The notes under the pieces: model-generated | Database searches by the model: none | What the model was told of the DNA's origin: nothing | Seen by the model: the letters and a program-made list of their open reading frames with translations, nothing else | Origin: Agrobacterium tumefaciens | GTDB lineage: Bacteria > Pseudomonadota > Alphaproteobacteria > Rhizobiales > Rhizobiaceae | Assembly (NCBI RefSeq): GCF_005221325.1 | Contig: NZ_CP039888.1 | Span: 496,001-560,000, forward strand | DNA length: 64,000 nt | Reading direction: 5' to 3' | Program-made: the position numbers and the translations under genes | In this document: positions 31,686-33,883 of the stretch, one piece after another | Position numbering within the stretch: position 1 is the first letter of the stretch | Layout: each line of letters starts with the position of its first letter

Positions 31686-31946
31686 ATGCGTATGATGATT
31701 GCCGCCCTTCTGGCCGCCGCCAACCTCCTGATGCCCATCAACGGCTTCGCCCAGAGCGTCGACGTGGAAGGCACGATCAGCAAGATCGATGCGAATGGGC
31801 TGAGCATTACCCTCAATGACGGCAAGACCTATCGCGTGCCGGAAGAGTTCAATTTCGAAGGTTTGAAAACGGGCGTGAAGGTCGTGGTTTTCTACACGGA
31901 AGTGGATGGGAAACGCGTGGTCGACGATCTTCAGGTCGTTGAGTGA
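31686..31946 (+). CDS. Small secreted DUF1344-like protein
   Basis: An 86-residue exported protein: signal peptide MRMMIAALLAAANLLMPINGFAQ, then a small beta-barrel-like domain (VDVEGTISKIDANGLSITLNDG, then VPEEFNFEGLKTGVKVVVFY). This pattern fits DUF1344, short periplasmic proteins of rhizobia with unknown role. The ATG at 31686 directly precedes the signal core; the frame stays open upstream but without a ribosome binding site. It ends 82 bp before the IS110 element. Confidence 0.78.
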   Translation: MRMMIAALLAAANLLMPINGFAQSVDVEGTISKIDANGLSITLNDGKTYRVPEEFNFEGLKTGVKVVVFYTEVDGKRVVDDLQVVE

Positions 31947-32032
31947 GGCTGCGATTGCGGCTTTGCCTGTGACGGGGTGAACCCCTGTAATCTTGTTCGG
32001 GAAGCACCAATATTTCCGTCATGCCGGACTTG

Positions 32033-32213
32033 TGTGGACGTAATATGGTTTACTGGAGCATTGGCCGGGATGCGCATCCCGGCCAATGCAGGCAGGAGGC
32101 CGTATTTCCGGACTGGTTGAAACAGCCGAGATCAAGCAAGGCCCTGCCTGCTCCCTTTGACCCCGAACGGTTGCTCGGGCTTTCGCCCGCACCACAAGCC
32201 TGGGAGCAAGGCC
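32033..32213 (+). ncRNA. Predicted IS110 bridge RNA with target- and donor-binding loops
   Basis: The region folds into a 5' palindromic stem (32058-32089) and two looped stems. Stem one (32088-32101 with 32140-32151, AG bulge) holds left target guide CCGGACT (32108-32114), hairpin GGTTG-AAA-CAGCC, and right target guide GATCAAG (32130-32136). CCGGACT equals the genome at 32024-32030, and GATCAAG is complementary to CTTGATC at 33166-33172. Stem two (GCTCCC 32150-32155 with GGGAGC 32202-32207) holds left donor guide ACGGTTGCT (32167-32175), identical to the element's right end (33159-33167), hairpin CGGGC-TTTC-GCCCG, and right donor guide CACAAG (32193-32198), complementary to CTTGTG at 32029-32034. 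Confidence 0.85.
32058..32089. repeat. Perfect 32-bp palindrome in the IS110 left end
   Basis: GCATTGGCCGGGATGC is followed at once by its exact reverse complement (32074-32089). It would form the first stem of the bridge RNA, or a cruciform at the DNA level. Confidence 0.85.
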
Positions 32214-33152
32214 ATGATACAGGAACTTCTCTTCGTCGGCATCGATGTTTCCAAAGCCCGCTTCGATATCGTTGTGCATCCTTCCGGCAAGTGCTGGAGT
32301 ATAGGCAGTTCACCTGCACAGATCGCGGCTCTCATTGAGCGCCTTCAGGCGCTTGGACAGGTCATCGTTGGGCTGGAGGCATCTGGCGGTTACGAGCGCA
32401 GGCTGGCTGACAGTCTGCATGCGGCAGGCCTGAAGGTTTATATCCTGCCGCCCGCAAGGGTTCGCAACTTTGCCAGGGCCATGGGCCAGCTGGCAAAGAC
32501 CGATAGGATCGACGCCGCCGTGATCGCCCGCTATCTGGCGACGGTACACAATAGTCTCACGCCCTATGAGCCAGACGCTGCCCGCAGCAGCCTCAGCGCT
32601 CTGGCGGCTCATAGACGCAGGCTGGTCGCCGAAAAGAGCGGCCTGACGAGCCAGCTCGATACCATCGAAGAGCCGCTGGTGCGTGAGATGCTGGAGGTGC
32701 GTCTGCGTACCATCGCCACTGATATCGCCACCCTCGACCGCGCCATGCGCGACCTGCTGAAGGCGACACCCGCCCTGCGAAAACGTCACGACAGGATGTG
32801 TGAGGTCACCGGTGTCGGCCCGATGCTAGCCACCGCGCTCCTTGCCGATCTGCCCGAACTTGGCACCGTTTCGTCAAAGGTCATCGCTGCCCTGGTCGGC
32901 GTCGCACCGCATGCGCGCCAATCCGGATCCTCCAACCGCCAGGGCAAATGCTCCGGCGGCCGCAAGCATCTGCGCGACATCGCCTACATGGCCGCCCTCA
33001 GTGCCATCAAGATAAAAGACCCGGTCCTCGGCGCTTTCTACCAGCGCCTGCGCAGCAAAGGAAAACCCTTCAAGCTGGCCATAGTCGCAACAATCCGAAA
33101 ACTCGTCACGATCCTCAACGCCATCGCCAGAACAGACCCCGCGTTTAACTGA
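32214..33152 (+). CDS. IS110-family transposase (bridge RNA-guided recombinase)
   Basis: A 312-residue recombinase. The RuvC-like N-terminal domain has the DEDD tetrad at D11 (GIDVSK), E55 (GLEASGGYE), D97 and D100 (KTDRIDAAVIARY). The C-terminal transposase-20 domain has the helix-hairpin-helix EVTGVGPMLATALLADLPELG and a serine-containing block APHARQSGSSNRQGKCSGGR, where the nucleophile is likely S237 or a neighbour. Length is slightly shorter than IS621 (326 residues), and no disruption is visible, so it looks functional. GGGAG lies about 6 bases before the ATG at 32214, within the 3' stem of the predicted bridge RNA. Confidence 0.95.
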   Translation: MIQELLFVGIDVSKARFDIVVHPSGKCWSIGSSPAQIAALIERLQALGQVIVGLEASGGYERRLADSLHAAGLKVYILPPARVRNFARAMGQLAKTDRIDAAVIARYLATVHNSLTPYEPDAARSSLSALAAHRRRLVAEKSGLTSQLDTIEEPLVREMLEVRLRTIATDIATLDRAMRDLLKATPALRKRHDRMCEVTGVGPMLATALLADLPELGTVSSKVIAALVGVAPHARQSGSSNRQGKCSGGRKHLRDIAYMAALSAIKIKDPVLGAFYQRLRSKGKPFKLAIVATIRKLVTILNAIARTDPAFN

Positions 33153-33289
33153 GCATCCACGGTTGCTTGATCCGGCATCCAGCCGACGCGTGTCTGCGCG
33201 GCGGGATGAGTCTTTTCAGTCCAAGGACTTGGGCTGGCTGGATTCTGGCTCAAGGCCGGAATGACGGGAGAGGGGGCGACCGATGCGCC

Positions 33290-33883
33290 TCATGAAATCC
33301 ACTCCGCGCTATTCCCATCGATTTCGACCTTCAATATCTGGTCCTGCGGAATCTGCGTCCTCGACGCCTCATCCTTGTCCATGCCGGATACCAGACGGAA
33401 GATCGAGCGGATGACGCCGCCGTGGCACACGCAGACGGTTGGTCTTTCCACGGAGGAAAGCCATGCGCCGATGCGCCAGGAGAGGATTTCATAGCTTTCA
33501 GCGTCCTGGCCGGGGGGAATGAAGTCCCACTTGTTGGCCTTGCGCGCCTTCACCCGGTCGGGAAACTCTTTTTTGAGTTCCGGCAGGGTCTGCCCCTCCC
33601 AGTCGCCGAAGGACACTTCGATCAGGCGGTCGTCGGTGCGGTAGGCAAGGGGGTCGAGGCCCATCGCGTCGCGCATCAGTTCCATGGTCTCGCGCGTGCG
33701 CCCGAGCGGGCTTGCCACGTAATCGAAGTCCGTGGCCCGTTCGCCCAGAAGACGGGCGAGAAGCCTGCCATTGCCGACCGCCTGCTGGCGGCCGAAATCA
33801 TTGAGCGGAATATCTTTCTGGCCCTGAAGCCGGCGTATCGCATTCCAGTCCGTTTGTCCGTGCCGGATCACATAGACGAGCAA
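33290..33883 (-). CDS. Histidine phosphatase family protein (phosphoglycerate mutase-like)
   Basis: A 197-residue phosphatase with the catalytic RHG motif in YVIRHGQTDWN at residues 5-15, LGRTRETMEL, the acid residue in LIEVSFGDWEGQ, and the second histidine in VCVCHGGVIRSI. Members remove phosphate from small molecules or sugar phosphates; the substrate cannot be told. It lies 32 bp downstream of fabI on the same strand and is probably co-transcribed. Confidence 0.9.
   Translation of the reverse strand: MLVYVIRHGQTDWNAIRRLQGQKDIPLNDFGRQQAVGNGRLLARLLGERATDFDYVASPLGRTRETMELMRDAMGLDPLAYRTDDRLIEVSFGDWEGQTLPELKKEFPDRVKARKANKWDFIPPGQDAESYEILSWRIGAWLSSVERPTVCVCHGGVIRSIFRLVSGMDKDEASRTQIPQDQILKVEIDGNSAEWIS

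Follow-up and report, generated by a model that had tools for sequence, protein, structure and literature searches.

A predicted bridge RNA with four readable guides in an IS110-group insertion sequence of Agrobacterium tumefaciens

What directs the insertion sequence at this locus to its target site? The window (the whole 64,000-nucleotide stretch of Agrobacterium tumefaciens DNA that was analysed) contains a recombinase gene preceded by a non-coding end in which short segments spell the flanks and the ends of the element itself. The earlier note, made from the letters, had described an IS110 element with readable bridge-RNA guides, and this description was borne out by the guide statistics, four guide-matched copies and orthologous uninterrupted sites, together with guide/flank covariation in relatives, the catalytic residues, the family model and the fold. 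We consider it very probable that the locus holds an insertion sequence of the IS110 group and that the RNA from its left end acts as a bridge RNA, as predicted below. The element and its borders are as follows.

32029..33165, plus strand: IS110-group insertion sequence, 1137 bp, with the CT core counted once
33166-33167: second copy of the CT core
32022..32030, plus strand: left target half-site, TGCCGGA plus the CT core, identical in four of four copies and read from the empty-site alignment
33166..33172, plus strand: right target half-site, CT core plus TGATC, identical in four of four copies and read from the empty-site alignment
33159..33167, plus strand: left donor sequence (right end of the element), ACGGTTG plus the CT core
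32029..32035, plus strand: right donor sequence (left end of the element), CT core plus TGTGT

Four full copies, identical over 1161 bp and all bracketed by CCGGA and CTTGATCC, are present in the genome of the window (6.14 Mb, 6 contigs); the remaining four genome matches are 32-bp self-matches of the hairpin. Alignment of the copies with their flanks, a check that the earlier note had proposed, was run in this genome and placed all four at CCGGACT/CTTGATC sites. On the left, copy-to-copy identity stops at 32013-32016, 13-16 bp from the core, and on the right it stops at 33182-33184, 15-17 bp from the core; beyond these limits the sequences differ among the four copies, indicating four separate insertions into the same repeat. 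The neighbouring phosphatase gene is present in 39 of 39 searched genomes of the genus (own included); the survey for an empty site fetched 30 of these 39 loci (one own) and compared the 29 others. An uninterrupted CCGGACTTGATCCGG was found at the orthologous place in two of the 29 (G003 and G007); for the other 27, a script search out to 700 bp detected none. The joined flanks of the window align to both of these loci without a gap at the junction, indicating that the insertion was precise. By this alignment the CT core would be shared and nothing else duplicated, as is characteristic of the IS110 group, and the exact crossover is unreadable within CTTG because these four bases are common to donor and target.

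The end lengths also place the element in the IS110 group, which has a long non-coding left end and a short right end (the IS1111 group has the reverse): the non-coding left end is 183 nt (32031-32213) and the right end 13 nt (33153-33165). A 5-bp inverted repeat, TCCAC/GTGGA, surrounds the donor core (32034-32038, 33156-33160); such subterminal repeats are short or absent in the IS110 group and 7-17 bp long in the IS1111 group, and the element falls with the former. The repeat measures 4-6 bp in four of five relatives and is interrupted in that from Novosphingobium.

32214..33152, plus strand: IS110 recombinase, 312 aa, with D11, E55, D97, D100 and S237

An intact DEDD transposase had been claimed for this gene, and the tetrad and the serine could both be located in a protein that passes the family model. 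Pfam assigns PF01548 (DEDD_Tnp_IS110) and PF02371 (Transposase_20), and NCBIfam NF033542 (“IS110 family RNA-guided transposase”) scores 198.7 bits at a cut-off of 140. Nearly full-length sequence matches in the PDB are ISCro4 (E=7.5e-25) and IS621 (E=2.3e-21); D11, E55, D97, D100, and S237 align with D11, E60, D102, D105, and S241 of IS621, whose PDB chain numbering runs two higher. Among 47 aligned sequences (window included), E55, D97, and D100 are invariant, and D11 and S237 are conserved in at least 90%. The AlphaFold2 model built from 47 sequences (pLDDT 88.4, pTM 0.78) falls below a pLDDT of 50, in segments of at least three residues, only at 235-248, the serine loop. Its nearest folds are ISCro4 and IS621 chains (TM 0.72-0.74 by query length), followed by TIGR-Tas proteins. 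The recombinase combines a DEDD RuvC domain with a Transposase_20 domain bearing the catalytic serine, the combination by which the IS110 family is recognized. A TIGR-Tas system (an RNA-guided nuclease with a tandem guide array) was considered as a candidate and rejected, both by NF052498 (23.4 bits versus a cut-off of 100) and by fold, with TM values of 0.60-0.62 to TasR lying below those to IS621.

The upstream left end has the following predicted organization.

32058..32089, plus strand: 5' stem-loop of the predicted bridge RNA, with a 14-bp stem that the earlier note did not mention
32090..32149, plus strand: target-binding loop of the predicted bridge RNA
32106..32114, plus strand: left target guide TTCCGGACT, matching at 8 of 9 positions (7 contiguous, 32108-32114)
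32130..32136, plus strand: right target guide GATCAAG, matching at 7 of 7 positions
32137..32139, plus strand: predicted target-loop handshake guide CAA, complementary to donor TTG at 33163-33165
32150..32207, plus strand: donor-binding loop of the predicted bridge RNA
32167..32175, plus strand: left donor guide ACGGTTGCT, matching at 9 of 9 positions
32193..32198, plus strand: right donor guide CACAAG, 6 contiguous matches and 6 of 7 in the geometry

All guide coordinates given previously were exact. CCGGACT (32108-32114) equals the left flank at 32024-32030, and GATCAAG (32130-32136) is the reverse complement of the right flank at 33166-33172; ACGGTTGCT (32167-32175) equals the right end of the element at 33159-33167, and CACAAG (32193-32198) is the reverse complement of the left junction at 32029-32034. 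Guides were scored in the published IS621 geometry (9+7+9+7 positions in fixed order) on 14-bp sites with the CT core at positions 8-9, the target being TGCCGGACTTGATC and the donor ACGGTTGCTTGTGT. The guide order and CT core proposed to be those of IS621 were recovered, with 30 of 32 positions fitting this geometry. The null maximum was 25/32 for the best of 2000 dinucleotide-shuffled left ends and likewise 25/32 among 1284 real windows taken from both strands of the same 64 kb.

The predicted fold of the left end contains the two stems with inner hairpins that had been noticed before, and it is more stable than shuffled sequences (z -3.3, with 1 of 200 shuffles as good). In this model two loops would carry the left target, right target, left donor and right donor guides in that order, the arrangement that defines a bridge RNA. 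In the fold predicted for the free RNA, part of the left target guide pairs with a few bases that straddle the start of the right target guide, and the target loop is for this reason not drawn open. Six left ends (window, G022, two of G025, Shinella, and Novosphingobium) align with 92% mean column identity; the earlier note had held that loops not conserved in related elements would speak against it, and the left end proved to be conserved. Two-sided changes occur in these six sequences at 6 of 55 predicted pairs, of which the 5' hairpin accounts for five and the target-loop stem for one. Variation in the donor loop is too slight for covariation there to say much either way. Relatives do not conserve the left donor guide at its core position, which counts against the bridge-RNA reading. 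So does a search of 31900-33400 against Rfam, which gave no match above a gathering score; an antisense match to sX15, a Xanthomonas sRNA (window 32071-32218, E=0.043, 27.3 bits versus a gathering score of 55), is absent at six related loci and was taken as chance. The ribosome-binding site of the recombinase, GGAG (32203-32206), lies on the 3' side of the donor-loop stem. A translation switch that hides it was rejected: the site is paired with a probability of 0.88, a value that 11 of 30 shuffles also attain, and among ten distant IS110 loci only L111 clearly beats its shuffles (1/30).

The target repeat, an intergenic mosaic, contains two palindromes in inverted orientation at a distance of about 80-85 bp, and it resembles the Rhizobium-specific intergenic mosaic elements named in PMC2573895. 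Unoccupied CCGGNCTTGANCCGG palindromes number 45 in the own genome, comprising 33 C/G, 5 A/T, 3 G/C, and 4 mixed forms. All four insertions lie in the A/T form spelled by the guides, compared with 5 of the 45 empty palindromes (hypergeometric 0.0006, a value that is indicative only, since the palindrome pattern was defined with the sites already known). A second palindrome, empty and different from the guides, is present in all four occupied mosaics; it was identified as CCGGACTTGGTCCGG by script at L002 and as C/G type from the palindrome list at L003, and was read by eye at L001 and L004. From these sites, the element is predicted to be addressed to one arm of the inverted-repeat intergenic mosaic. 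In G000, eight oppositely oriented CCGGNCTTGANCCGG pairs, 83-85 bp apart and mostly C/G, represent the two arms of the mosaic.

Relatives of the element are few. At E ≤ 1e-60 among 151 genomes (own included), the protein was found only in G000, G022 (81%), and G025 (two copies, 70-71%), and the genome collection added Shinella kummerowiae (69%), a Novosphingobium MAG (69%), and Devosia limi (81%, contig-end pieces). The RNA model matches 5 of 39 congeneric genomes, namely, G000, G022, G025, G024 (three left ends cut by contig ends), and, weakly, G010 (24.7 bits, left out). Only the own genome was returned by an order-level protein search (397 genomes, E ≤ 1e-80), a phylum-level protein search (398 genomes, E ≤ 1e-60), and a class-level RNA-model search (385 genomes, E ≤ 1e-6, stricter filters). 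The 45 plasmid records listed all show less than 60% protein identity (best among those listed, 42%), and left-end DNA gave no match against plasmids; two phage records stand at 30-32% protein identity, and one of nine viral stretches carries a relative. Distant RNA-model matches are L048 (43.1 bits), L069 (24.7 bits), and L097 (24.9 bits), the last being the sole, weak model match among 30 viral loci with a 15-base motif. L038 1-400 (an IMG/VR contig, at a contig end) is a partial copy with 99% identity over the last 91 aa; its right flank, CTTGTGTAG (CTTGTGTAGCG), lies off the palindrome and is possibly an off-target or retargeted site.

The target guides of the relatives differ by none to three bases, and they mostly change with the flanks. 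In G025, guides TCGGGCT/GGTCAAG stand at TCGGG|CTTGACC in both sites (2/2), and in Devosia the right flanks are CTTGACC in 6/6 and the left flanks CGGGCT in 6/6, with position 3 right in 2/6. The right guide of G022, GCTCAAG, stands at CTTGAGC, and its left guide has A versus C beside the core, a mismatch. The left half is matched in Shinella and the right half, CTCGACC, has one mismatch; in Novosphingobium the left guide has T versus C at position 3, and the right guide GGTCAAG at CTTGATC forms a G.T wobble. G024, where left flanks alone were compared, is matched in two of three copies and mismatched beside the core in the other. When sites were averaged per element, 60 of 65 positions matched across the seven elements compared, a set that left out L048, L069, L097, and ten plasmid IS110 loci. 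In a permutation test, 24 of 5040 assignments were as good or better, the best reaching 61 versus the true 60; this result is support and not a probability, since the elements are related and some share guides. In this small and related sample, the target guides covary with the insertion sites. The mismatches in G022, G024, Shinella, and Novosphingobium, the better permuted assignment, and the L038 flank were counted against the bridge-RNA reading. One tentative account, which we regard as possible but would not yet favour, is that the lineage is being re-addressed in steps of a single half-guide. The left target guide would change separately from the right one as the element tracks the subtypes of the host's intergenic palindromes, mismatched intermediates (G022 and Novosphingobium) would stay mobile by tolerating either a core-side mismatch or G.T wobble pairing, and the handshake base of the donor loop would lag from a G-type ancestor.

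A mechanism may be proposed on the pattern of IS621, for which a circle, a rebuilt promoter, a bridge RNA, and CT-core recombination are described in PMC11208160 and PMC11208158. Excision would yield a circle, the junction of which would rebuild a promoter (TTGCTT-N17-TTTACT), and the left-end RNA would be expressed as a bridge RNA. One RNA loop would pair with the palindromic target site and the second with the joined ends of the element itself, each loop engaging both DNA strands, whereupon the DEDD and serine active site would exchange strands beside the shared CT core.

32049..32054, plus strand: -10-like TTTACT of the predicted junction promoter

In the circle, TTTACT would sit 17 nt after TTGCTT (33163-33165 joined to 32029-32031). 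Of the copies checked, from seven elements, 8/8 share TTTACT at the same distance from the core, with the right-end TTG compared for six of the seven. The handshake CAA, whose role is taken from PMC11208158, is constant in 8/8 copies checked. The donor-loop handshake CC fits targets ending in GG (G025, Shinella, and Devosia) and meets A at target position 7 here and in Novosphingobium; it is AC in G022 and cut off in G024. The C left unpaired with target A7 could pair with donor G7, which counts against the reading: a handshake base pairing with donor position 7 hinders exchange in IS621, according to the same source.

Could the palindrome instead be read by the recombinase itself, protein to DNA, with the left-end matches as remnants of an earlier insertion into related repeats? 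The target is palindromic, as protein-bound sequences often are, and other IS families also target REPs (PMC1525189); however, the guides occupy the order and loops of IS621, they change with the flanks in relatives though the whole left end is 92% identical, and A/T sites were taken although 33 empty C/G sites share the palindrome frame, all of which makes this explanation very unlikely. That homologous recombination among repeats, and not transposition, spread the four copies is hardly credible: the copies are identical and lie inside a dispersed repeat, but their identity stops 13-16 bp to the left and 15-17 bp to the right of the core, with differing sequence outside, and the insertion was precise, the same site being uninterrupted in two related genomes.

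The IS110 element may also possess a bridge RNA and yet have ceased to move. The donor-loop handshake base, unfavourable by IS621 rules, points in this direction, whereas the intact gene and guides and the four identical copies suggest recent movement, and we judge loss of mobility to be unlikely. The IS110-group element with its predicted bridge RNA would probably be active, a reading that the four identical copies and the intact gene fit.

The locus provides a compact alphaproteobacterial IS110 recombinase (312 aa) for which all guides are readable and the uninterrupted site is known. The 45 unoccupied palindromes of one frame, with 4/4 insertions in the guide-spelled subtype, amount to a natural specificity test and to a natural record of target choice between sites two bases apart. 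Target guides seem to change one half at a time, and the differences among relatives would help in studying the natural retargeting of bridge RNAs.

The guidance of IS110 elements by RNA (PMC11208160 and PMC11187229), natural retargeting, described for ISEc11/ISXne4 (PMC11187229), and REP targeting by IS110 elements, one of them rhizobial (PMC1525189), are already published. Among the titles and abstract openings searched, mostly without subscription journals and without ISfinder, none concerned this element or rhizobial mosaics as the target of a bridge RNA. IS621 of E. coli (PDB 8wt6; PMC11208160 and PMC11208158) likewise belongs to the IS110 group and has a long left end with an RNA of two loops, the same guide order, a CT core, DEDD and serine residues, insertion into an extragenic palindrome, and promoter-like boxes across the circle junction. 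The two differ in target and in protein (about a quarter identical, 23-25% in fold alignments); in the same sources the right target guide is 4 nt in IS621 versus 7 nt here, the right donor guide is discontiguous in IS621 versus 6 nt contiguous here, and the inverted repeat around the donor is 2-3 bp for the IS110 group versus 5 bp here. ISCro4 (PDB 9t56) is the closest solved relative by sequence and fold in comparisons of the protein. By description in passages of PMC1525189, which name no guide RNA for it, the IS110-family ISRm19 of the rhizobial Sinorhizobium meliloti, with 4/4 copies in REP sequences, is similar, and IS110-family elements of Pseudomonas, ISPpu9, ISPpu10, and ISPa11, have their copies in REPs (7/7, 7/7, and 6/6) and differ in host and repeat; ISPa11 is of the IS1111 group (PMC11187229). 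Set beside these systems, the element is a clean addition to the known IS110 family and not a new kind of system.
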